Assembly: GCA_001632435.1 (NCBI GenBank)
Contig: KV423921.1
Location: 4,460 to 68,459 of the forward strand
DNA length: 64,000 nt
Direction of reading: 5' to 3'
Origin: Calocera cornea HHB12733
Taxonomy: Eukaryota; Basidiomycota; Dacrymycetes; Dacrymycetales; Dacrymycetaceae
Positions 4,272 through 18,760 of this stretch are shown piece by piece. The notes under the pieces were generated by a model, which worked only from the letters and a program-made list of their open reading frames with translations, did no database searches and was not told the origin of the DNA. The stretch's first letter is position 1. The number at the start of each line of letters is the position of its first letter. A program made the translations under genes and the position numbers.

Positions 4272-5047
4272 GGTGCTGGTGGGCGGTGGGTGACCGGGGA
4301 GGGAGGAGGGCAGCTGGCGAGGATGAGGCCGCTGTATGCTGGGACGCTGGAGCGGCTGAAGGTGGAGCTGGTCGCTGGTCGCTGTCCGCTCCTTTCCTTT
4401 CCAGGTGCTGAGCGTGTACGTTTCCACAAATCTCACGTGGGAGAGGTTGCCCGTGCGATTTCTTCCACTCTTCTTTCGGCGCTTCCCGTCGTCGTCGAGG
4501 GTTCTTCTGCGCGTTCTTGGTTCGTGCGGCCTGCCTCGTTCGGTTGCTCCGCGCGCGCTGGTTCTAGCGGTACAGAGTCGTTCGCGCAATTAGGGGAGAG
4601 TTGAGCAGAGTACAGCAGGAGCAGGAGTACTTAGTCGTCGCGCCCCGTCCACGTAGGGTACTTTCACCCGCAGCCGTCTGCTCGCAAAGGCCGGCTCACT
4701 GCACGCAAGCACAGGCAATCGCTGCACCCGCACCGCTTTTGGCAGAGGCGGGGATGGTGTGGTCAGCGGGGGGTGAGCTCACTGCACCTCACACCTCACT
4801 GCACACGGACTTGAGGGCGAGCGGTGCCCGCCACGCGCCTGTCTGGGCACACTGTACTGTCCTTGTCATGACACGAATGTATTGCGGCAGGGCGCGATCG
4901 AACCCGGCGAAAGAAGGCGTGGCGTCTCACCCTCCCGCGGCTGACACTGACCCGGCGCGTCCCAGGACCCCGGAACGCGCTCTCTGCCTCCCAAAGTCAT
5001 GGAAGAGGCAATGCAATGTCCAATGTCCGTTGCGCCGCGGCGCGTCA
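4272..5047. other. Intergenic, host flank of transposon
   Basis: Upstream region of the membrane-protein gene. No open frame with protein-like composition is present. It ends at the target-site duplication of the large transposon. Confidence 0.5.
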
Positions 5048-5054
5048 CAAGGGG
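5048..5054. repeat. Target-site duplication, left copy
   Basis: CAAGGGG lies immediately outside the left inverted repeat and is identical to the seven bases immediately outside the right one at 17820-17826. The neighbouring bases differ, so the duplication is exactly 7 bp. Confidence 0.85.
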
Positions 5055-5081
5055 TATGGAATGGCTAAGTGGACAGCTCCG
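5055..5081. repeat. Left terminal inverted repeat (27 bp)
   Basis: Begins TATGGAATGG and ends CAGCTCCG. It matches the reverse complement of 17793-17819 at all 27 positions. Weaker similarity continues inward for about 20 more bases with gaps. Confidence 0.9.
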
Positions 5082-5235
5082 TTTCTGCGTCAGACCTGTG
5101 AGGGTCTGTTGAGACCCGAGGGTGGTCTCCCCTCTCTAGCTGATAATTAGTCAGTAATTACTAATTAAGTTTAAGCTCCGCTCTCTCGGCTTTATTTCTG
5201 ATAACCGGAACTCTGTATCGCGCGATGTTAATGTG

Positions 5236-5492
5236 TCATTCGATTTAGGGTTCGACACCCCGTCGCCTCTCCTCATGTACGTAATGACAACAACAAAGAT
5301 AATTACGATTACAATTCGAACTACAGACACTCTACAGCTCTCAGAACGGGAAGTTTCGACTTGGGTCTATCTCCCGCGGCCTGATAATGTCTCATTCGAT
5401 TTGGGGTTTGGCGCGGCCACCGCCCTCCGGTGGCCCATAGTTTGAGCAAAAGATAGTTTTGATCCCAATCTATATAAAATGTCACTCCAAAG
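5236..5492. repeat. Left subterminal motifs A, A and B
   Basis: Motif A (CATTCGATTTAGGG and variants) occurs at 5236-5252 and 5393-5406, and motif B (TAAAATGTCACTCCAAAG) at 5475-5492. The 17-bp form at 5236-5252 is a perfect inverted match to 17615-17631. The two lie 181 and 188 bp from their respective element ends. Paired subterminal sites of this kind are typical transposase-binding positions; that role is inferred. Confidence 0.75.
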
Positions 5493-5600
5493 CTCGCAAA
5501 AGCGGCGCATACAATCAACATACAATGTGCAAATGAGTGTATTAAAGAGTGACAGTAGTTAGAACATGAGGTTAAGACGGGCACTATCTACGCGGCCGTC

Positions 5601-6590
5601 TTACGCTTTCTTCGTCGCTTTCCACGAGTCGATCCCCGTCGTCAGGACCGTCCAGGGGCTCACTCCACGAGCAAGCGCGATGATACAGACGACTGAAGGA
5701 TGCATCAGCAGATCGTCTCGCCCAGTAAGGTAGGAGACTCACCGAGAATGCAGAACGCATGGCGAGGGTTGGCCTTCACCCACGGAACAACCGGCCCAAA
5801 GACCTTGCCAATCGCCCAAAGGATCCAGCCGATGACGATCTGGAAAGGGAGAACGATGCGCTCCCAGGCGCTCTTCTTCTTCTTCTTGGCCTCCTCCACC
5901 TCCTCGTCCGTGAGGCCGCGGGCCATGCCGAATGCTTCAACGATGTCGCCGACGAGGACCTTGAGACCGGCGTAGCCAGCAGCGGAGCGGATGCCGAGCT
6001 TCTTCTCAGCCTCAGTGTGCGCGATGTTCTCGGGTCTCTATAGGAAGGTCAGCGCGGTGGGGAGCGGGCTGCGGAGTGACATTTTACGTCGCTCCGCAGA
6101 ACGAGGAACTCACCTCACCAACCATCCCCTTCTCCATCGCGTCGACATCGTCCCCCATCACCGCGTTGCCGGCTGCCGTGAAGTGCGTACCGGTGGCACG
6201 CAGGACGTTCAGAACGCCCTCTTCCCTCGCTGTCGCCATGATGGGACGCAGCTCGATATCCCCACCGCCAGTCCGTCCCGAGCTGGGGGGGGCACGCCTG
6301 CGGGGCTCACCGACGATGGAGGCCACGCGGGACACACCGGGCTTGTCGACGACGACGCGAGTACCCTTGTCGTTCCCAAGGTCGACGCTCTGCAGCAACG
6401 AGGCACGGGCGAGTCCTTTCTTGCCGGGCTCGTCGGCAGCGTGCGTCACTGGCTTGTCAGGGGCCTTGTTGACCGGCTCGTCGGGTGCCGTGATCGTACG
6501 GCAGAGGGCCTTCTCCAAACTCAGCAGAGTTTCGTCGGGTCCATCGAGGGTGTTGTCGGGTCCAAGGAGGGACGCCGAGTCTTCATCCAT
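5601..6590 (-). CDS. Transposon cargo gene: 287-aa protein with hydrophobic C-terminus
   Basis: Three exons, 6114-6590, 5743-6037 and 5601-5692, with introns of 76 and 50 nt. All phases agree and give 287 residues. The N-terminal half is acidic and polar. The C-terminal third has a Lys-rich stretch followed by two hydrophobic segments (about residues 215-240 and 250-265), so it may be membrane anchored. I recognise no family. The first intron contains a copy of motif B (6073-6086) inside a perfect 8-bp inverted repeat. Another motif B lies just downstream of the stop and a third upstream of the start. Its position inside the element makes it cargo or an accessory protein. Confidence 0.65.
6073..6086. 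repeat. Motif B in intron 1 of the 287-aa gene
   Basis: GGAGTGACATTTTA on the plus strand. It sits within a short hairpin whose 8-bp arms read CTGCGGAG and CTCCGCAG. Confidence 0.65.
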
Positions 6591-7201
6591 CGCGCTGGAA
6601 GGGTATGTGAGTGTAAAGTTGAGTTATGGAAGCGTATGGGTTAAGTTGATGATGCAGGTGATGGTGGTACGGATGGGAGAGAGAGGAGGAAGCGCGGCGC
6701 AGGGCGAGGGACTGCCTCCGTGGCAGCGTGTCCGGATTTGCGGGCGCATGCCACTGAGTCGGTCGGTGCTTCTCCCCCTAAATCGGGCACGTGGGCGGGT
6801 GTAATCCATCACTAGGGCGAGTCACGCAGCTCGCAGGACAAGGCAACACGTCGTAAAATGTCACTCCAAAGTCTGCCCAACGACCTTTGCATGGCTCTTA
6901 CTATAATTTGTTAGCTTGATGACGGCAATTCACCTCTATCCATCGTACTATACAAATTTCGATGTTGACCAGACCCTGATCGTCGTGACACGCGCCAGCC
7001 ACGAGGCGCGGGCGTCTAAGTCACATGACTTTGACAAGCCATTCCTACATAGGCTGTGCTGGCGGCGGAGCCTGATACACCTCTCCTGTCTGAACGACCA
7101 TCATCCGCCTTCTAACACCTTACGCTGCTATTCAAACTACAAGCTACAACCTGTAAGTAAAAGCGCATCCAACCACGTTGCACCTGGCTCACACTCCCGC
7201 C
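6591..7201. other. Divergent promoter region inside transposon
   Basis: Lies between the divergent 287-aa and 279-aa genes. It holds a degenerate motif A near 6777-6787 and a full motif B at 6854-6871. A GTAAGT donor at about 7153 suggests a 5'-UTR intron for the rightward gene. No coding region is supported. Confidence 0.45.
6777..6871. repeat. Degenerate motif A plus motif B
   Basis: CCCTAAATCGGG near 6777 is a partial inverse motif A. The 18-bp motif B is perfect at 6854-6871. Confidence 0.55.
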
Positions 7202-8089
7202 ATGCACAGAAACCTCGTGTCGTTAGCTCCTCGAATGTCTCACCAACACTCCTCTGCGCAGGCGCACCTCGTCGGGAGAGGAGCGAGCGCTATGGCACCT
7301 GGTGCGTTTCCATTTGCCTTCCATCCGATCTTCTCTTATTTTGCTTTAGACAATCCGAGCTCTCTGGAGAGCGGGCTTTGGAGTGACATTTTATGCTCGG
7401 AGAGCGTTCCAACCAACGACACGAGCAACCGCGTAGTCGCCCGCCTGCGGGGCGACGAACGCAACCACCCCGGTGGCCCAGGACCCGATCCTGGCCCGGG
7501 CATCGGAGTTCCTCACTATCCCGATTATGAAGATGTGACGCACACCACAACCCCTTCCACCAGCGAGACGGAGAATATGTTCGCGCTTCTCCACCGCTTC
7601 GAAGCCAACCCTTTGGCGCTGAAGGACGTTCTTGCTTCAAATGCAATCCACCGTGGCACGCATCCATCTCCCTTGATCTCTCCTTCCATCCAGGAGGTGG
7701 CTCCCAAGAGCCACCTGAAGGACACTCATCATCTTCCTCCTTACAATGGCTGGGACGAGCCGCCTCCCTATCACTTCACTTCTCCGGCGAACGGCAGTCA
7801 CAGTCCTACGACTGTCGACCACGGTCCAAAGAATTCCATCCCACCGAACACAGCCTTAGACTACAACAGTGAAGGCTACTTCCGCCGCCGCTACGACGAG
7901 GGCTACAAGCGAGGCGTTGCCATGCGCAAGAATGCCAAAGAGATCGGGTTGCAGACATCCAATGATTGGATCCTCGGCGTTTTGAAGGTGTGGTATATGC
8001 TCACCGGTGGATACACTCCTCTCGTCGACAATCAAGATCTGGATTCTGACATACTGGATACCCCGTCACCTCTGTTGACCTCGTTCTGA
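7202..8089 (+). CDS. Transposon cargo gene: 279-aa hypothetical protein
   Basis: Exons 7202-7301 and 7350-8089 are joined in phase 1 across a 48-nt intron (GTGCGT, TTTAG), giving 279 residues. The ATG at 7202 has a good CCGCC-ATG context; later in-frame methionines exist. The protein is Pro/His/Ser-rich and probably disordered until about residue 200. After that, a short Arg/Tyr-rich segment (FRRRYDEGYKRGVAMRKNAK) looks like a basic helix. Codons just after the intron overlap a copy of motif B (7376-7393), so this repeat is translated here. No family is recognised. Confidence 0.55.
   Translation: MHRNLVSLAPRMSHQHSSAQAHLVGRGASAMAPGAFPFAFHPIFSYFALDNPSSLESGLWSDILCSESVPTNDTSNRVVARLRGDERNHPGGPGPDPGPGIGVPHYPDYEDVTHTTTPSTSETENMFALLHRFEANPLALKDVLASNAIHRGTHPSPLISPSIQEVAPKSHLKDTHHLPPYNGWDEPPPYHFTSPANGSHSPTTVDHGPKNSIPPNTALDYNSEGYFRRRYDEGYKRGVAMRKNAKEIGLQTSNDWILGVLKVWYMLTGGYTPLVDNQDLDSDILDTPSPLLTSF
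7376..7393. repeat. Motif B within coding exon
   Basis: Inverse-strand motif B, all 18 positions, inside exon 2 of the 279-aa gene. Confidence 0.65.
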
Positions 8090-8274
8090 ACAGGATGTCT
8101 TCTCCAGCCTCTTCTATGGCTTCCTTCTCTTGTCGTGGATGCTCCATATAGTCCATCGCTCTTTTGTAACTAGGCTGATTAGGGCCATCCAGTCGTTAAT
8201 ACACTCGTTAATTGTATTGGCGTGTCTTCGTGGAACCGACTGTCTGTGACAGTCACCACATCGTCACATTGGGG

Positions 8275-8286
8275 CTCGATTTAGGG
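8275..8286. repeat. Partial motif A upstream of the 1019-aa gene
   Basis: CTCGATTTAGGG lies about 85 bp upstream of the ATG at 8369. It could be a promoter element or a remnant end. Confidence 0.45.
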
Positions 8287-8368
8287 TCTGGCCACACCTA
8301 CTGCTCGATACGTCTCCACCTTCGCCACCCTTGCATCCTGTCCTTATACTTCCCTCACGGCTATCAAG

Positions 8369-11300
8369 ATGGACACCAACCGCCGTAAGGCGGTCAAGCA
8401 GCCCCGAAATCCAGTGAAAGAACCCAAGCAGCTTGGCCGACGATATCCCCGCATCAAGAAATGGCTTAGTCCGCCGGTCTCCGCTGCCCAAGATGCCTAC
8501 GATCGCGCTGAATCACCGTCTCTTGTACTACCGCCTATATCTCAATTCGGGGAGGCGAGATTCCCCTCTGATTTACGTATGGGACTTCCGCCTATCCGTA
8601 GACCTGAAATGTCAAGCGAGGATGATGGTGATGACCGCGTCATCAAACCTCCCTCCTCCTCCACCTCCAGCGTACCACCCACGTCAACCTTTGGCCGCGC
8701 ATTGCTCCGTCCGCATCCAACTCCTCCTCGCAAGTCGGCAGGTCGCGCACAGGTTGCAGTAACTATACCGTCGAGCCAAAGCGTGAAGCACTCGGATCTC
8801 AGCCGGCCCTCATCTTCGTCCACACCAGAGTTCTCAGTGCTCTCTCCACCCGCGACACCGCCTTTGCCTCCTCGCCCCGAGCCTCCTCCGAATGGCCCGT
8901 ATGACCCAAGCTATCGACGTCGACTGGAGCGGTGGTATAAGCGCGTCGAAGCTCAACAGAAGCGTCGTGAGGCAGAGGAACTTGTTCTGCAGCAGGATCG
9001 GCAACAGGTCCAGGTCAACATGCACGTCGACAGTCAGTCTCAAGGCTCTCACAGCGTCGACCCGGATCTCCCTCTTCCCGAGATATTGTCCGAAGCAGAC
9101 CCCTTCGACGTGTCTATGAGCGCGAGCGATCACGGCAGCAATCACGAGAACCCTTCGCCTCACATGGAGATCGACGAGGACGATGATGTGGATGATGATG
9201 AGGACTCTGCCGAATGGCTTCCAGACTCGAACGGTAGCAGTGATCCGGAGGATGAAGCATCTACTGATCACTCATCGATTCAAGACTATAGCGACGAACT
9301 TGCTGAGCTACGTGGATCCGACCCGATAGAGGAAGATAGCGACCAGGGTTCGCTGGTTCCCGAAGACGATGATATGGCATCGATGAACGATGAGCACGAC
9401 ACGGAAGAAGATGACCTTGAGGCCATGGAGAACAGCGAGGAGGTAGAGGAGTTGCAGTCAGAGGGGGAGGCACAATCGCCTGCAGCGCAGAATGAAGTCA
9501 TTGGAGAGGCAGAATATCAGGTGCGTCACTGTTTCGCTCACACGTGCCCGCGCTGACATACCGGGACAGGACCATATAAACGACATCCTCGATGATCTAC
9601 AACAAGAACCAGCCGCTGCTAAACCGAACAGCACCACTTCAGCCAGTACAACCTATAGTCAAGACCTCGAGAGAGTCTGCAATGAGAGGGAGCGCGCAGA
9701 GCATACCCTGCTGGATCTTGCTCGATGTCGGCCAGGAACCGCCGAGGCCGCTGAGTATCCCGAATGGCAAAGGAAGTTGATGACCGCACATGTATGTCCT
9801 TGTGGTGTTTTACTGGAAGTCACTGCTCACAATCATCTAGAAGTTTATCCTTCAATGGCATTCAGTGACCTTGCCGGACGAGAACAGCCGCATCCAGACC
9901 GTCCTTCGTGTCCTCAAGAAGCATAGTGACGAGCTGCTCAAAGGAAGAAGAAGGGGAGATGGGGGTGGTGGTGGCGATGGCAATCCTCGTCCCAAGCCGA
10001 AGGACGAGGACGAGGATTATGTCGATAACCTGCTAAAGAACGCGCACCTCAGCCCAGCTCAACGGATACTCAACTGTATGTCGGCTCAAGAGCTGATCGA
10101 TGACCTAGAGCGTGAGCCGCAAATCCCTCTGTTCTCACAAGAAAACTTGCCCGATGCTCTCATCGGGGTACGCAGGAGGTGTGCATATCTGGTAGGCCTT
10201 CCCGTGTTGCCCTAAATCGAATGTAATTCGTGCTCATCCTACTGCAGTCTGCCTACTTCGGTCTGATCAAAGCGGATCAGGCTTCACCCTGGCTGCAAAT
10301 GAGAGGTCCAATCGCGACGAACCTCATCAATATCTGGACATGGCATCTAGAATTCGACGTGGAAGCCAAGATCGATTTCGTCGAGGATGTGGATCTGGCC
10401 TTTGGGGAAGAATGGAGTATTCTGGAGATCCTCCGACAGGTCGAGACTGGCGAAATCGGCTCCGTTGCAAGCCGTTACAACTGCGATCTGTACTCCACAA
10501 GATACATCAGGATCACTGATCGACTCACACGGCCCCGCCCTGGACCGAACGCTCGCATTTCCACAGTATCTGCTTTTATGACTCACACTGAATGGAACTT
10601 TGTACGTTTTGTGTTGCCTCAGAACTGGTACATTCTCAACTGATATCACCGCAGCGAGATACATTTACTCATCGTGGCCTTTGGCAATCTCCTCCCACCC
10701 ATTTCTTTGCTATCACGATATTCGACCTTATGGACTATGCTCGGAAGTGGCACTTCTCGCACGATATTGCTCAGTGGCCCGTTCCCATGTACAATCTTCC
10801 GGAAGCGATCGTACACGAACTCTCCCTGGAGATGCAGGGCCATGCACGCGTGGGTCCACGCTTTAGCGACGACGAGCTCGCAGATCTCCAGCGTGGCGGA
10901 CGTATGCTCAGCAAGGATGAAATATACAATACGATTATCGTCCACACGCAGCATGCTCTGAACAAATTCGATAAGAAAATCGCTCAAGTTCATGAGAAGC
11001 ATAAGCGGAAGTCAAGGCGTAGGGCTTTTGGGGGCATCCTTCCCAATGACCTGCTTGCTCCTCCTCCCAATCTCGAAGTGGAGTCAATCATTCCGCCGCT
11101 CGAAACCGCTCGGGCTGCAGGTACCACGCGTGTGAAGACTATTATGCTGCATCCGATAGCGGTGAGCTACATCTTTCCGTACCCTGATGATATTGACGCA
11201 AATCATGATCTTAGTTACACTATGGTAAATACATGTGCTTGCGATGCCGTCGCCGTCCAAAGGAAACTCGCAAGGGCCTCAAGCGTGGTTGCTATGTGAT

Positions 11301-11735
11301 CGAAGGCACGGGATGTACGTCTTGTCGGCGACAAGGTTTGCCGTGCCTATGGCGGAAGTTCGCGACCCATCGCAAAAATAGTAAGTATCGAGGGGCTAAT
11401 GGATTTCCTGTCTAATCATCTGTGCAGTTTCCTCCAAAGATTGGTGGAAGAACAAACCCAATCGCAATCTGAAGATTAGCATTGACCATCTCGAGCAACT
11501 AGTGGCCGAGGCGCACTTCAATGGAGATCCTGCTTCCGACAATGCTGCCCCAGAAGAGTGGGAGGATACAGATGACGAGGAGTGGCTAGATGTTGCTCAG
11601 ATCGAGAGAGGAGAGAAGCAAGAGCGCAAGGAGAAGGAGGAGGAGCGCAAGAAGAAGAGGCTGGAGATGGAGAAGCGGAGGGATGAAGCAAGGGCACGTG
11701 CGGCGGATGGACAGGATGAGGTGATGGAGGGATAG
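8369..11735 (+). CDS. Transposon gene: 1019-aa protein with six-cysteine cluster
   Basis: Seven exons (8369-9520, 9570-9791, 9841-10191, 10248-10601, 10655-11161, 11215-11380, 11428-11735) join with consistent phases and give 1019 residues. The first 400 residues are low-complexity: Pro/Ser-rich, then strongly acidic. The middle (about 500-850) is globular-looking with many Trp and aromatic residues. Near residue 870 six cysteines are spaced C-x2-C-x14-C-x7-C-x2-C-x6-C. This resembles a fungal Zn2Cys6 DNA-binding cluster with a lengthened first loop, and basic residues surround it. The C-terminus is a charged Glu/Lys/Arg coiled coil. The intron at 11162-11214 is preferred over reading on because it brings the cysteines into frame. 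A DNA-binding accessory role for transposition is inferred only. Confidence 0.7.
10210..10223. repeat. Motif A inside an intron
   Basis: CCCTAAATCGAATG sits inside the third intron of the 1019-aa gene, an exact inverse copy of motif A. Confidence 0.6.
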
Positions 11736-12064
11736 CGGTCTTTGGAGTGACATTTTAGGCAGCGGTGTTCCCAAGTAGTAATCACTATGGAATTATGCTC
11801 CTTCTCATTCGATTTGAGGTCATTCGCGGCCTGAGCCTGTGACTGTAAAAGCGCACCAAAGGCTCATTCCATGTCCCTAAATCGAACGCAAGGTACATGA
11901 ACAATAATTTTGGATTACTTTTTTGAGACATCGGCGGAAAGTAAGTGCTACGGCTAAAGCATGGGGTGAAATGCAAACCAAACGAGCGGCGGAATGACTG
12001 CAAGCGCTGATCGAGCGCTCATCAAAGCAAAGGCTTATGTACATGGGGAGGTAGCGTTTCGGCA
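11736..12064. other. Convergent spacer rich in element motifs
   Basis: Between the 3' ends of the 1019-aa gene and the kinase gene. It holds motif B at 11740-11757 right after a stop codon, motif A at 11806-11819 and inverse motif A at 11875-11888. A degenerate B-like stretch lies near 11845. Confidence 0.6.
11740..11888. repeat. Motif cluster B, A, inverse A
   Basis: Perfect 18-bp inverse motif B followed by two copies of motif A in opposite orientations within 150 bp. Confidence 0.65.
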
Positions 12065-14655
12065 TTAATGTGCCTCAATGCCAGTGTTTTGCCTCTCCTC
12101 GACAGGTCCTACCTCGCTGGCGTCTAGGTAGCGCGGCTCCTCTCGATCTTCCTCCTCTTCTGGACTTTCGCGTTGATCAGGGGTGCTTGCCAAGCTCGGC
12201 AAAGCCAATGCAGCACAGTAGGGAGTGCATCGGTGCTCGATGGGGAAAGCTGCGAAGGCGCGGGCCACATTCCCGTCACCAAACAGGCGCCTAGGGATCT
12301 CACTGGCTCTACGATTGAGTATCATTCGTGCAAGAGCGATGCACACGTACGGAGTGGTCATAATCTGCGGATCCGTGAGGAGCCCATTGAACCCTGTAGG
12401 AAGCTCAGCATCGCCCATCGCCTCACAACGAATCATGTATACCCTGGAAATCACTAACGTAGACCTGCCCACCGGTTTCCAAGTACTGAAGATGCTGGCA
12501 GAAGGAAAGAAAAGCCGCGATGTCTGCTTCAGAACCAGACAACTCTCGAGGAAGTGCGCTGCCGTTGTTGATATACTTGACAAAATTCTCGGGGTGACCA
12601 TCGGTATCAATCAACTCTTCCACCAGATACGGCAAATGGTGCCGTGTCGCCCGCGTCTTGTCCTTAGGCGCGGTCGGGAGTCTGACCTGGAAGAGACCGC
12701 ATTGGACAAAGCGAACTTCAGGGAAGACGGTGAGAGAGATGAGATCGTCGGGTCCGGCGGATTCCTTAGCCTCTTGAATACGTTGATAGACCAGGGCCAT
12801 GAGGGCTTTCGCCCAAACGGAGCAGGTGATTTCGCCCGCAAGCTTCTCTTCCTCTTCCTCTTTGCCTACCCGAGCGAGCTTCTTGGCAAGCACAGTGGTG
12901 TTCGACTCAGCCGCGACAGCAGGGGGCAAAACTCCGTTCTTTCCCGGTCCTGGCACATACCAGCGCTTCATGGCGACGCTGATTCGGGTGTTGACGGGGA
13001 AAGCATCGTGCTGCGTGTTGGGACTGGCTTCATGCACAACGATCCGACCGGGGTGGCACGTTTTGAAGGAACCGGCGCGACCCACAGAGGACGCAAGTCG
13101 TTCGTCCACCGTGATTTCCGCCGTACAGCCTTCGTTGTGCCAATCAACAGGGAATTTATATCGAGTGCGGACGAGATATCCGAAGGCGAGGAGAGGCGCC
13201 GGAATAAACAAGCCCGTATCGCGATGGACGCCGATCGGCAGCTTGGAACCACCGATAACGGCTGCACTGTCCTGCAGCGCGGCCCGTATCTCTTCCACGG
13301 TGACGGCGGGATCGCGTTGTTGGGCAAAAGGGGGAGATGCGTTCGAATTGGGGTTTGGGGCAGGGACTGCAGCGGCGTGACCATGTAAAATGTCACTCCG
13401 AAACTCGCTCCCCGTCGCGTTCGTCTGTCCACCATGGGGTCCTACTTGCATTTGCTGGCGTTTGGAACGGGGAGTGCTGGATGGACTGAGAGACTGATAA
13501 TGCTGTTAGAAAGGACGATCGTGCTGGAGGGCACTGCGCTTGGCTTACTGGCTGGGGAGGTCGAGTACTATGGCTGCGTTTACGAGCAGTCATGGGCCGT
13601 GAGACGGGCGCGCAGGATGATGGGGTGATTGTCCTTCGACTGGAAGCTTCCTCCATGTGGAGCATGACTGCCTCGTAGACCTTCGGCAGGATGATAAGCT
13701 TGACCTTGAAGGATTTTCCATGCTGAAAGACAGGTAGGGTGCCCTTGGGCTTGCCGCGCGGCGTTCCGATACACAGATCGTAGAAGACAGGTCTCGAGTC
13801 AGGATATCGGTCGTAGTTGGTGCCGTCTTGTCCACGGAATACGAAGTCGTCCGCATGAAACACGAATCCTCGCGTTGAATCCATCAAGGGGCGCTGAACG
13901 AGTGACAGTATAGTAGACTTGATTGCCGCGGCCCCCTTCTTGGCAGGCATGTCTTCTCGATCTTTGATGTTCTAGGGCGAAATGTGATCAGAGGCAGCTA
14001 CGGTGGGTGTTGGGCGAATACTTACCATGAAAAGCTTCGAACCCACTCGCCCTTCTTCGAAATAATGAACCGAAAAGTGGACTCCAACGACCTCAGGCTG
14101 GACTCGCCCATAAGCTTGCTGGGATCGGTGCTGATATTCGGATTGATAATGTATATGTTCGTTGGTGTATCCTCTGTGTCCGAGAGACAGCGAGGAACCG
14201 AAGGACGAGGAAGCATGCAGTGGGTTACCAGTGAGGAACGGCAGGCTCCCAATAGCTTGAACGTGAGCTCCTCCCGCTGCAATACAATGAGGACAGGGTA
14301 CATAAGGAGCTAGGAAAGGCATACTGTTGAGTCTAGCTCGGTGATTCATGCTCCGAATGACCTTGGGATCCGGCAACACGTTTGGAGCTTGTACCGTTAA
14401 ATCAGGGCGTCGTACGGTTGTTCGCGTGCTGCCTTTCTTGAGATCATACGCTGCCCAGCAGGCAGGACAGACAATGTCAAGGCTATGGCCGTCAAGAGAT
14501 CGCATACGCTGATAGATTTGCCCAGCCGGGATCACATAATGTGGTCGGGTATTGCAGAGCTCAGCCCTGGAGCATGGCTCGGGCTTGCGTGCGACGAATG
14601 TCATAGCCGCGGGGGCTATGAACACTTCATCGCTGCCTGGCGGCATGGAATCCAT
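12065..14655 (-). CDS. Alpha-type protein kinase carried by the transposon
   Basis: Four exons (14026-14655, 13549-13971, 12443-13493, 12065-12393) join in phase and give 810 residues. The C-terminal 250 residues carry alpha-kinase landmarks: a VEELIDTDG-like segment with a following KYINN, an SDFQG block equivalent to the DLQG of this family, LTDPQIMT, a glycine loop FGDGNVA, and the His-x-Cys-x3-Cys zinc ligands (EHRCTPYC) that stabilise the fold. These kinases (MHCK/eEF2K/TRPM-type) phosphorylate Ser/Thr, often within helices. The N-terminal Cys/Trp-rich segment (CNTRPHY...CPACW) may bind metal. The start at 14655 is the first Met giving plausible sequence. A motif A-like plus motif B stretch (13342-13399) is translated within exon 3, in the linker before the kinase domain. 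Agaricomycetes have expanded alpha-kinase families; finding one inside a TIR element is notable. Confidence 0.8.
13342..13399. repeat. Motif A-like plus motif B within kinase exon
   Basis: TTCGAATTGGGGTTTGG resembles the left-end motif A copy at 5395, and TAAAATGTCACTCC (13386-13399) is motif B. Order and orientation match the left subterminal region of the element, and both are read through as coding sequence. Confidence 0.55.
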
Positions 14656-15408
14656 TGGCCGGGAGAATAGTGTGAAAGAAACTTTGGAAGAGAGTGAGGT
14701 CGGGAAAGTAGACACACGGAGGAGAGCACTCACACTTGTCTCCTTAAATCGTTTACGGGACTCAAATGGCTGCCTGACTCCAGTTCGTCGAAGTACGTGG
14801 CTGATCGGGGGCGGAGACTCTTCTTTTTGCTCCATCCGCAGACCATGCAAAATGATCCCCAGCAGAAAAATCACAATATAATCAAGCAGACGCGGGCACA
14901 TGCAACGGGAGATAGCACGGTTGATGAAGCGAAGCCACGGAGACCAGGATAGAGGGAGTAGGTCGCACCGCAAACAGAAACAGCTGCGGAAGGGACAGTA
15001 TATCTGAAATGGAGGATCTTGGGCCTCCTTCCAAAGGAACGCTGATTGATGACGGTTGCAAAGTGGCTTGGCGGCCGGACCAATGAGGAGGACCGTGTAA
15101 AATGTCTCTCCAAAGCCCGTCCTCCGCCCCCAGCCAATTACAAAAGCGCGAGCCGATGGGTTGCCTACGGTCCAGATGCCTGGGGCCGCAGAAGCACTCT
15201 AAAAGCGGTCAAGAGTTTCACAGCCCCGAATCGAGCCTGCCCGTTGGTGGAGATGCGGAAAGGACAGGTCTCGATGGTAAAGGAAGCCCGTCTTCATCAC
15301 CGGAACCAAACCGATAATCAACTGCCGGAGACCTGGGCCGTACCGTCACGACAAGATCCTCATCTCTCATTCCAGGCTCTACTCGTACTGCGTCTCTGCT
15401 CATGAATC
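14656..15408. other. Divergent promoter between kinase and transposase
   Basis: No supported exon. Motif B with one mismatch lies at 15098-15115. Open frames here (for example 15046-15405) lack phase-compatible links to the transposase exons, although an additional 5' non-coding exon cannot be excluded. Confidence 0.45.
15098..15115. repeat. Motif B upstream of transposase gene
   Basis: 17 of 18 positions match motif B. With the inverse copy at 17351-17367 it brackets the transposase gene. Confidence 0.65.
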
Positions 15409-17317
15409 ATGCTCCGTAAATTGAGCCAGGGTCGGGGCCCGCTTTCCGAGAGGTCAACCGAAGGGACAGACTCAGTGCGCCGAAGAACGGGTCAGCACCC
15501 GAATCAACATCGCCCAACTGGTACGAGATCTTCATTGTCAGCGTGAACCCATGGCTGATATCACTCTGATGCAGTTCCTGATGAGGAATTACTACCGCGT
15601 ATCGAAGAGTACTGGGCGCAAGGGTTAGGAGATGGTGAGATTGCCGAGGCAATCAAGTTTGACGTCAACGCGACACAGAGAGGATGGGGGCTGAGGTGCG
15701 TACTAAGGAAGCCATGCTAAAGTAGCAGTAACTGACAAAGACTTACAGTAAGAAGACCGTCTCCCGTCGTCGAAAAGCGATGAAGCTGCAGAGTGTGCGA
15801 CAACAGGGTCATACCCTTGTCTCGCTCCGGCCTCACGTCGAGCCGGTTCTTCGCAAGTTTCCAAACGCTGGGGTAAAGCGAATTAAAGACTGGTTGGCTC
15901 TGAAGCAGGTTTTCGTATCTGAGTACGTGGCCCAAAGGAGCTCCGATGACGCCGAGACTGACACGAGTGCAGGCACCTCATCCGAGAGTACAATCGGCGA
16001 TTTCACCCTGAGGAAGTTCGGCGTCGGCAAGGCAAGCGGCTGAAGAGGGCCAAAGCTTGGTCAGAGGGGGTGTTTGCCACGATAGCTGTCGATCAACACG
16101 ATAAGTGGCACGAATATGGACTCTTTCTGCATTTGGGAGTGGAGACATTCTCTGGTGCGCTCCTCTGGATAGAGCCTTGGTGGACCAACAAGAATCCTCG
16201 TCTGATTCTCAGCTTCTATCTTCAAACGGTCAGAAAGCACGGTGGTGAGCAGTATTGTGCTGCCGTGGGACCGAGCTGACGGAGAGCTAACAGGTATTCC
16301 GCTCATCACACAAAGCGATCCAGGGAGCGAGAACAACGGCATTGCGAACGCTCAAACGATGCTTCGCCAACGTCTGGACCCCAGTTTAATCGGCAAGCTG
16401 CAGCATCGGTGGATGCGTGGGCATACCAACATCAAGCCCGAGATACGATGGAGCCAGCTCCGCCGAGAGTTCACGAGGGCCTTCGAGGACCTCTTTGCCT
16501 TCGGAGTGAACCAAGGGTGGTACAGTAAACACGACTTATTGCAAAAGTGAGTGCTTCCTCCGTTGCATGTCAAGGTTGCTGAGTTTAGTACAGACTAGTC
16601 TTTCGATGGCTCGCCATACCCTTCTTGAAGAAAAACTTAGACGAATACGTGCGCATGTACAATACAAGCAAGCCTCGACGGGATAAGAACAAGGTTCTGC
16701 CGCGGGGACGCCCAGAGCATATCCTGTATCACCCGTCACGCTTTGACAATGCGCACAACTTCAAGGTATATACACATCCATTGCTGTGGCGAGAAACAGT
16801 ACTTGACAATGGACTTCAAAGATTCTTGCGGATGAAGAGGATTTCCGGGTGGTAGAAGAACTGTACGCCCCACGCGATCATCCAGTATTCAGGCTAGTGC
16901 CCCCTTTGTTTGAGATGGAGATTCGTGGGTACTTCAAAGGTAAGTATACAGCAAGCGAATTGTGGAAAGTTTTCTGACTATCTGATTGAAGAGATTGACG
17001 AGCCCGAAGTGACGATGGAAAGCTTCTGGGAGATCTATGGGTACTTGCTGAACGCGTTTCTACGATCGTCCTCGCGGGATCGAATGATGACAACATTAGC
17101 CTTGCAGGCTGAGGAGGAGATGACGATAGAAGGGGAGCACATGGAGCTAGTGGAGGGTGAGCGGGTTCCTGATGAGTGGGAGGAGACAGACGAGGAAGGG
17201 GACACGGAGTCCGACAGTGATGTGCCAGATCTGGATTGGTCGGAAGAGAGTCTTGGGGACGAGGAGGAAAGCCGAGACGTGATTCGAGAGGTTGAGGACT
17301 TGACAAAGGGGTTGTAG
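15409..17317 (+). CDS. DDE integrase-fold transposase
   Basis: Eight exons (15409-15520, 15575-15695, 15749-15914, 16013-16244, 16294-16546, 16594-16765, 16822-16939, 16992-17317) join with every phase matching and give 499 residues. Residues about 38-75 form a helix-turn-helix-like segment (LPRIEEYWAQGLGD). The catalytic core shows the first Asp in AVDQHDKW (about D160), the second in TQSDPGSENNG (about D219) and Glu in NIKPEIRW (about E260), a D-58-D-40-E triad of the retroviral-integrase (rve) superfamily. The WWTNKNPRL block and the LHLGVE segment match the integrase-core proteins common in basidiomycete genomes. The C-terminus is an acidic tail. This is the probable mover of the element. 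The first exon is the least certain. Confidence 0.82.
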
Positions 17318-17350
17318 CATTGTTATACGATCTGTGTCATTCATGCGGTA

Positions 17351-17367
17351 TTTGGAGTGACATTTTA
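17351..17367. repeat. Motif B downstream of transposase gene
   Basis: Inverse motif B begins 33 bp after the transposase stop codon. Confidence 0.65.
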
Positions 17368-17554
17368 TAAAGGACAAACTGCTATGACGGAATCGTGCAT
17401 TGCGATGCTGTGCGTGAAATGTGACTGTCGGCTGACTAGTCTTACTAGGCCGTTATGAAGACTTGCGGCACGAAAGAGACAAATATGAACTGTGGACGAC
17501 ATATGTGACAATGTTAAAGTGCGCTTGGGGGGGGGAGAGGATGGGCCTGCGCGC

Positions 17555-17631
17555 AACCCTAAATCGAATGGCATCACCCTCGCCTTTTCGGTAGAAGTGG
17601 CGACGGAGGAGCAGAACCCTAAATCGAATGA
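17555..17631. repeat. Right subterminal motif A pair
   Basis: Inverse motif A at 17555-17570 and again at 17615-17631. The second is a 17-bp perfect inverted match to 5236-5252. Confidence 0.75.
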
Positions 17632-17792
17632 GTACTGACAATAAGGTCATCATTGTCTTCATGCGCTTAGCAAGCAGGAGCCGGTTAGCTAATAGCCGGT
17701 AGAAGCTGAGTTTGAACCTTGAGTTGCTGCGAATAATATTTGGGAAATGGGTTGGGTCTGGTCTGCTCCCGTACGAGACCCTGCCCTCGACG

Positions 17793-17819
17793 CGGAGCTG
17801 TCCACTTAGCCATTCCATA
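17793..17819. repeat. Right terminal inverted repeat (27 bp)
   Basis: Exact reverse complement of 5055-5081, ending CCATTCCATA at the right boundary. Confidence 0.9.
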
Positions 17820-17826
17820 CAAGGGG
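17820..17826. repeat. Target-site duplication, right copy
   Basis: CAAGGGG, identical to 5048-5054. Confidence 0.85.
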
Positions 17827-18760
17827 TGGGCGGGCAGTTCAGTCCGTCAGAGGGACAGACACGATGGATCTTACTTACAATGCAGCCCAGCCACCCTTGG
17901 GTTTCCTACTGTATGTCTCCTACGCTGCTCATCTTGCCCAGGTGGTCCGCGATCTCAGGCCTGCAAGCCCCGCCGACTTCAACGGACACTGGTACTGATA
18001 CTGGTACTCCTCCAGATCCGTCGGATCACGCTCATGAAGATAGGACGGACAGGCCGTGTCTCGCCCAGCCCACCCAGCATCCCCGGGGTCCTCCTCTCCC
18101 CTTCGTGCCGCGTCAAAACTACTAACTCCGGGGTCCTTTTTTCACCGAACTAGCAACAAAGCGCACCCCAAATCTACGCGTCTGCAATGCCGTCAGTCCA
18201 GTCTGGGCCGAGCCGGGGGAGGGTCGGCTCCGGCATGAATCATGAGGATGAGCACGGTATGTATAATGACTGTACCGGCATGGGTCTCGCACCACGCTGT
18301 GCGGTGTAGGAGCACTAGAGATTGTTTGGCACATTCCTATCTTGCTGTCCGAGGTATGGGCCGCATACACTCCCCGAGACCTTATAAGTTAGGTCTCACG
18401 TGCGCTAGGGAACCCGCGCGCACGTTGATGTCATTGATTCATCGGATGTTCCTTTCTCTATTCCTGGCCGTTCCCACGTTCCCAAAATTCGTGCCGGTCC
18501 AGGGAGCGCGAAGGAACGCAAAGGGTTGGGAACGTGCTGTCGTGCTAGGCTGGCTTTTGATGTCTGTAGTTAATAGGGTCGTCATAAATTGTTGCGTGTT
18601 GATATCACAATGCGTAGGGGATACAATAATGCCATGCGATGCTCCACCCACTCACCCACCCTCCTCCCGTTCCGCAATCCTCCCCCTCCCATCTTCCAGT
18701 GCGCCAACCGTGCTATGGTCCACAGTGCTCCAGGACCTTTTTCATTGGTCAGTAAGCCAG
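17827..18760. other. Intergenic, host flank
   Basis: Region downstream of the insertion and of the MFS gene. Open frames here are short and unlike proteins. Nothing specific is recognised. Confidence 0.45.

Follow-up and report, generated by a model that had tools for sequence, protein, structure and literature searches.

A stretch of 64,000 nucleotides from the basidiomycete Calocera cornea HHB12733 (GenBank assembly GCA_001632435.1, contig KV423921.1, positions 4,460 to 68,459 of the forward strand; hereafter the window) carries five genes between short terminal inverted repeats (TIRs), which raises the question of what kind of transposon this is, and of what the short words repeated along it might do. 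The element is very probably a DNA transposon of the IS3EU superfamily; it measures 12,765 bp, looks intact and is probably autonomous. Within the 32.1-Mb, 302-contig genome it is the copy on contig C8, and other copies are likewise referred to by their contigs.

Inverted-repeat comparison revealed 28 of 28 complementary bases between 5054–5081 and 17793–17820, with 12,711 nt in between; the outermost base is a chance match, and the TIR proper counts 27 bp without mismatch. In a sister family, the T of TATGG is precisely where homology between copies sets in. The register was therefore set at this T (span 5055–17819), and with TATGG/CCATA at both ends the direct duplication outside them is exactly 7 bp (CAAGGGG on either side). 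In this single copy, a 6-bp duplication together with the gain of one base (G at the left end or C at the right end) may alternatively account for the same reading. The original prediction of a multigene TIR transposon that looks intact, with 27-bp perfect repeats and an exact 7-bp duplication outside them, was thus borne out, and further copies with the same kind of ends were found.

IS3EU elements have TA..TA ends and duplications of usually 6 bp (Kojima and Bao 2023, PMC10045372), while fungal IS3EU elements bearing a TET gene combine 6-bp duplications and TAYGG..CCRTA ends with transposase and alpha-kinase genes in opposite orientation (Kojima 2025, PMC12730594). Moreover, a multigene fungal element attributed to IS3EU, i.e., Styx with four open reading frames (ORFs) in 7,927 bp, has already been published (PMC10853768). 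IS3EU-type termini were found in the window (TATGG..CCATA), in C260 (TACGG) and, as TAYGG-type ends, in C196/C48, C65 and C25, these being the five elements of which both ends could be read. TIRs measure 27 bp (perfect) in the window, about 40 bp at an identity of at least 80% in C260 and 24 bp (perfect) in C65, compared with more than 30 bp stated for the rust families. In all four sisters readable at both ends, the duplication is 6 bp (TCATTC in C260, AGCACC in C65, GAGGGA in C25, and CGACCA in the C196 element, read across the two contigs C196 and C48). Furthermore, the alpha-kinase gene D (minus strand) lies opposite to the transposase gene E (plus strand), as in the TET-bearing fungal elements, and in a tally of best candidates across the genome a gene D match was present on 19 of the 27 contigs with a gene E match, both genes being divergent on 17 of these 19.

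This assignment follows the published description (ends, transposase type, alpha-kinase). Several points weigh against it: the duplication of the window copy is 7 bp where 6 is usual; D and E share a strand on two of the 19 contigs (C71 and C126); and the closest genomic copy is only about 71% identical, so that no recent sibling of the window copy is known. On balance, the window element appears to be a member of the known, little-studied IS3EU superfamily, filed with a deviating duplication. The earlier view that it fits no known family was not supported, given the fungal IS3EU marks in its ends, transposase, opposite alpha-kinase and the 6-bp duplications of its sisters, and the search for further copies proposed with that view recovered the matching kind of ends elsewhere, though not the 7-bp duplication. 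The exact 7-bp repeat outside TATGG..CCATA could itself be taken to define a new cut-and-paste superfamily, which is most improbable since the duplication is 6 bp in every readable sister, and since ends, transposase type and alpha-kinase agree with published IS3EU. That a host gene cluster is bounded by chance inverted repeats is hardly credible: no point in its favor was found, ends and gene order are common to further copies, and these sister copies, including a near-identical pair of half-copies with unrelated flanks, refute it.

Two other classes were considered and rejected. The hallmark of Starships is a DUF3435 tyrosine recombinase, for which the five products yielded no Pfam match at E-values up to 1. 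No Kyakuja-Dileera-Zisupton (KDZ) match was found among the five products either, and a duplication of 7 bp in this copy and of 6 bp among its sisters differs from the 8 bp of KDZ elements.

Genes were modelled by comparison with the C78 copy and by splice modelling, and domains were sought with Pfam. None of the five models contains an internal stop, so that the five uninterrupted multi-exon genes of the original prediction stand as five open models with conserved frames, four of them multi-exon and gene B a single ORF. Between the window and C78 copies, the ratio of nonsynonymous to synonymous substitution rates (dN/dS) was 0.18 for A (264 codons), 0.39 for B (290), 0.16 for C (985), 0.17 for D (771) and 0.08 for E (470), values that are approximate with dS at 1–1.9 across the five genes, which weighs against reading them closely. 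Among 22 gene-by-copy comparisons, nine were synonymously saturated and gave no ratio; the remaining 13 range from 0.08 to 0.48. Judged by these low ratios, all five genes are maintained across element copies by purifying selection.

Gene E matches the integrase core PF24764 (E-value 7.3e-9) and gene D an alpha-kinase domain (E-value 1.1e-11). The DDE integrase type of the 499-aa protein reported earlier was retained, its length being remodelled to 515 aa, and the product is identical (100%) to CALCODRAFT_427331 of C. cornea HHB12733 over 85% of its length. It has an integrase-like core without the HHCC motif, the integrase fold coming from its relative P0002, and no cysteine is invariant or nearly so in a 23-sequence alignment. 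NCBIfam returned only a sub-threshold IS3 match for P0002 (E-value 0.023). Genes A, B and C had no Pfam match above the cut-off; by eye, the A product has a hydrophobic stretch close to its C-terminus. PF26625 (named ‘Putative Zn2Cys6 domain’ in the source) is listed in a precomputed column for nine of 11 database relatives of gene C, and was not called in our own Pfam run on the relatives P0121, P0123 and P0127, the last of which is not among the listed nine. A structure for gene C via its relative P0122 had a mean predicted local distance difference test score (pLDDT) of 46.7 and a predicted template modelling score (pTM) of 0.27, and was not used.

Genes A, B and C set this element apart from most of its relatives. 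In the genome search, A and B matched the same six contigs only (C8, C78, C260, C196, C97 and C108), and C matched 13, i.e., these six plus C64, C67, C85, C93, C109, C111 and C132. Where D and E were both matched (19 contigs), matches to all of A, B and C accompany them on three (C8, C78 and C260) and are absent from the other 16, of which one (C54) is cut by the contig end. A predicted protein of C. viscosa (P0124) joins B-like and C-like parts, and the B–C order therefore also occurs in this sister species. A and B thus appear to be restricted to this IS3EU sub-lineage, with C beside them, as an apparently new accessory block. The seven further gene C loci also carry TTCGATTTRGGGTT and had no A, B or D match on their contig; they may represent another kind of multigene element that shares gene C. 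C64 has a weak gene E match (26.5 bits) 22 kb from gene C, and C132 (58500–68499) also carries a phosphotransferase-like gene (PF01636).

That this class of elements has moved recently follows from a sister family, as the left halves on C97 and C108 differ at two positions in 3,805 bp, with the identity beginning at TATGG and the flanks unrelated. The sequences at C97:119085 onward, C108:1–3805 and C54:175374–180004 are halves of this family broken by contig ends; C54 shares the word described below and may be a third copy, but its flank yields no duplication with C97 or C108. The nearest full-length relative of the window copy is the five-gene copy at C78:105790–118671 (71% identity over 9,954 aligned bases). 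The outermost bases of its right TIR are lost, so that its duplication is unreadable, and the copy is probably immobile now owing to this damage. For C97, C108, C54, C9, C127 and C155a one end only was found; at C9:326619 a decayed right family end was seen, its left end not being found. A brute search found no convincing pair of TIRs and duplication for C127, C155a, C155b, C10, C2 and C18, which may be ancient, extend beyond the stretch examined, or have ends of another kind. Far larger IS3EU elements also occur in the genome, i.e., of 26.3 kb (C65:25829–52148) and 26.4 kb (C25:195648–222022), both bounded by identical 24-bp TIRs and with genes D and E situated at their right-hand end. The former holds a Pif1-like helicase ORF (PF21530, E-value 3e-7), ORFs of unknown nature and an internal run of N; of the latter, the parts read lie on either side of 195901–210499.

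The second part of the question concerns a word, TTTGGAGTGACATTTTA, that occurs eight times in the window element (with zero to two mismatches), four times per orientation. All seven genome matches to its core (at most one mismatch) fall within the window element, and a reversed-pattern control gave none in 32 Mb. Different words occupy homologous places in C78, C260, C196 and C97 (e.g., GCGRGCTTTGGAGTGACATTTTA in C8, GCGGATGTTCCAGTCACCTTTTA in C78 and GCGAACGGCACGATGACATTTTA in C97), and in three families the edges of the word are constant (CG..TTTTA) with a variable middle. Five element families each repeat their own word of roughly 23 bp at up to eight homologous positions, for the most part in the same orientation. 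C54 carries the C97 word at its sites 7 and 8, and C48 the C196 word at its site 8, and the shared words therefore link these contig halves independently of the duplications. One or two extra word sites lie near the ends of some copies. C196 has word arrays at site 4 (four copies at 126-bp spacing) and site 5 (nine matches at 30–34-bp spacing), and C260 has three word copies at site 5.

When spaced exact 12-mer copies were counted, C8 and C78 each had seven, C260 six, C196 eight and C97, a partial element, three. In 100 dinucleotide shuffles each, at most three were reached for C8, C78, C260 and C196, and at most two for C97. Twelve overlapping host pieces of the window of the same length had two or fewer, as did the gene E or D/E regions of C127, C155b, C10, C2 and C18 in the same examination; C65 and C25 had only close or tandem repeats (three and four, respectively). 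In 29-bp windows of C8, C78 and C97/C54, sites within a family are 76–80% identical, whereas the same site compared between families reaches only 57–61%; windows 40–60 bp from the sites, measured in C8, are 24–25% identical. Because identity within a family thus exceeds same-site identity between families, the words appear to have changed in concert within families. Relative to C8, their orientation is the same at eight of eight sites in C78, seven of eight in C260, all five found in C97/C54 and six of seven in C196/C48.

Some of these observations weaken the case for a family-private word system. The sites were chosen by pattern, which makes the identity within an element partly one of construction, and C54 on its own (two copies) lies within its shuffles (up to three). 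The orientation comparison for C196 requires one free choice of word direction, and the orientations in C260 are weak since its word is near-palindromic; site 8 has the opposite orientation in C260 and C196/C48, while site 3 is absent from C196 and was not recovered in C97. Neither are words confined to elements with A–C: C155a, with gene E and no nearby D, has 11 exact copies of CAGGATGCGC in both orientations (C155:1067–4261), between 1.2 and 4.2 kb of the contig and left of the gene E match. C155a may represent a further IS3EU lineage that has a word of its own. A TACCGAAG.. end lies at 8907 of C155.

Most likely, though with somewhat less than an even chance, the eight word sites would be binding sites of an element-encoded protein that switches on or un-silences the element's own genes. 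More tentatively, the words would act as a self/non-self code in which each family-private word co-evolves with an element-encoded binder, so that every family would switch on or un-silence itself and no other; this would be a fungal, independently evolved counterpart, in another superfamily, of the VANDAL/VANC system, with the Zn-cluster-like gene C as a second DNA-binding module that pairs with TTCGATTTRGGGTT and is shared with other loci. It is possible, if on the doubtful side, that the words instead serve as normal signals for promoters, terminators or RNA processing, recognised by a regulator that the element encodes and unrelated to any escape from silencing. In favor of this, sites are present 3′ of A, C and E as well as in the intergenic stretches of the divergent pairs A/B and D/E. 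General host signals, however, would not vary between families of one genome, the window word core has no match (at most one mismatch) outside the element in 32 Mb, and this explanation still needs an element-encoded regulator, by which it overlaps with the first. An unlikely alternative is that the words are functionless and that gene conversion, or very small insertions, spread and homogenised them within individual elements. The tandem expansions in C196 and C260 and the denser scatter of another word in C155a would fit such a process, but C8 and C78 keep eight homologous sites in the same orientations at only about 71% element identity.

Besides the words, there is a second, subterminal motif. 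Exact copies of TTCGATTTRGGGTT number 28 in 32 Mb (none for the reversed control) and lie on ten contigs, all of them among the 13 with gene C; against a simple pairing, three of these 13 (C78, C260 and C196) lack an exact match. In the window element, two motif copies per end face inwards. The looser form TTCGATTTDGGG was absent from 51 kb of host sequence in the window, from C65, C25, C127, C155a, C155b, C10, C2, C18 and C9, and from C260 and C196. On C132, facing TTCGATTTRGGGTT copies near 61.6–61.9 kb and 79.1–79.2 kb, with more in between, lie as if bounding a 17-kb element. That gene C binds TTCGATTTRGGGTT is a guess from their co-occurrence.

While the ends, the duplication, the sister copies, the recent movement of the sister family, the purifying selection on all five genes and the fold of a close relative of the transposase were established here, we infer the cutting and joining by gene E, the cut-and-paste mode and the roles of A–D. 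The integrase-fold DDE transposase encoded by E would bind and act on the TATGG..CCATA ends, perhaps together with the subterminal motif bound by gene C, and excise the element, which would be reinserted where the target is cut with a stagger of usually 6 bp (7 bp in this copy). Gene D, the alpha-kinase gene, is a partner also present at many other IS3EU loci of the genome, and A, B and C would be a sub-lineage accessory block retained by selection for the element's own spread. The words are best understood as targets of an element-encoded regulator that diverged between families, like VANC proteins and their motifs in VANDALs. In rust IS3EU elements a TET gene was proposed to counter silencing (Kojima 2025, PMC12730594), and since no TET matched among the five products, A–C may hypothetically take this role.

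Comparison with known systems places the element as follows. Rust IS3EU elements with TET/JBP and alpha-kinase genes (PMC12730594) share the TAYGG..CCRTA ends, the IS3EU-type transposase and the opposite alpha-kinase gene, but have the TET gene between transposase and alpha-kinase and 6-bp duplications, whereas the Calocera element has no TET match, a 7-bp duplication, and A–C with private words. Styx of Zymoseptoria (PMC10853768) is likewise multigene, has 6-bp duplications, as the sisters of the window copy do, and carries accessory genes with DNA-binding motifs; by its description it is shorter (7.9 kb, four ORFs), and no alpha-kinase or repeated words are named in the text seen. The VANDAL/VANC elements of Arabidopsis (PMC5735166, PMC10398659) likewise repeat a family-specific short motif that differs between families. 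They are Mutator-type plant transposons with mostly one-orientation, often tandem and non-coding motifs, and VANC binding was shown experimentally; the Calocera words are mostly single fixed sites in both orientations, two of them inside ORFs. GingerRoot and IS481EU have related integrase-like transposases, GingerRoot with 6-bp duplications and mostly TA..TA ends, and differ in their hosts, i.e., clubmoss and animals, and parabasalids, respectively (PMC10045372).

In the fungal transposon literature searched, sequence-specific anti-silencing referred, in the text accessible, to the plant system (Kojima 2025; a 2026 meeting report), and only Kojima 2025 was relevant by title to alpha-kinase and transposase in fungi. 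No literature was found on Calocera with transposon and terminal inverted repeats, or combining alpha-kinase, transposon, basidiomycete and integrase. Fungal IS3EU elements are little described in the literature searched, and the private-word system is new to us. The features of the window element are collected below. By-eye reading of ORFs in its flanks (4591–5047 and 17827–18760) suggests that it sits between two minus-strand genes, membrane-protein-like and MFS-transporter-like, and no broken host gene was noticed there.

Table 1. Features of the C8 element, in window positions.
Feature	Position	Strand	Remark
Left target-site duplication CAAGGGG (7 bp)	5048..5054	.	
Left TIR TATGGAATGGCTAAGTGGACAGCTCCG	5055..5081	+	
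Subterminal motif TTCGATTTRGGG, copy 1	5239..5250	+	
Subterminal motif, copy 2	5395..5406	+	
Word site 1	5475..5491	-	3′ of gene A
Gene A	5705..6590	-	269 aa; exons 6590-6114 and 6037-5705; no Pfam match at cut-off
Word site 2	6070..6086	+	gene A intron; 2 mismatches to core
Word site 3	6854..6870	-	between genes A and B
Gene B	7202..8089	+	ORF of 295 aa, with a possible short intron; no Pfam match
Word site 4	7377..7393	+	N-terminal part of gene B ORF; C78 alignment reads through site
Gene C	8369..11735	+	1019 aa; 7 exons; no own Pfam match above cut-off
Looser motif TTCGATTTDGGG, internal	10210..10221	-	
Word site 5	11741..11757	+	just past gene C stop
Looser motif TTCGATTTDGGG, internal	11875..11886	-	
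Gene D, alpha-kinase PF02816	12065..14655	-	810 aa; exons 14655-14026, 13971-13549, 13493-12443, 12393-12065
Word site 6	13386..13402	-	poorly conserved gene D linker ahead of kinase part
Word site 7	15098..15114	-	between divergent D and E
Gene E, DDE transposase, PF24764 integrase core	15409..17317	+	515 aa; 8 exons
Word site 8	17351..17367	+	33 bp past gene E stop
Subterminal motif, copy 3	17557..17568	-	
Subterminal motif, copy 4	17617..17628	-	
Right TIR	17793..17819	-	
Right target-site duplication CAAGGGG (7 bp)	17820..17826	.	

Overall, several diverged families built on the same five-gene plan coexist in this one genome with others of 26 kb, and a fungal DDE transposon can therefore carry many genes without Starship machinery. 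The private words open a cheap and concrete question, i.e., which element protein binds which word, and whether binding tracks family identity. If an element protein indeed binds the word of its own family, sequence-specific self-recognition by transposons would have arisen independently outside plants.

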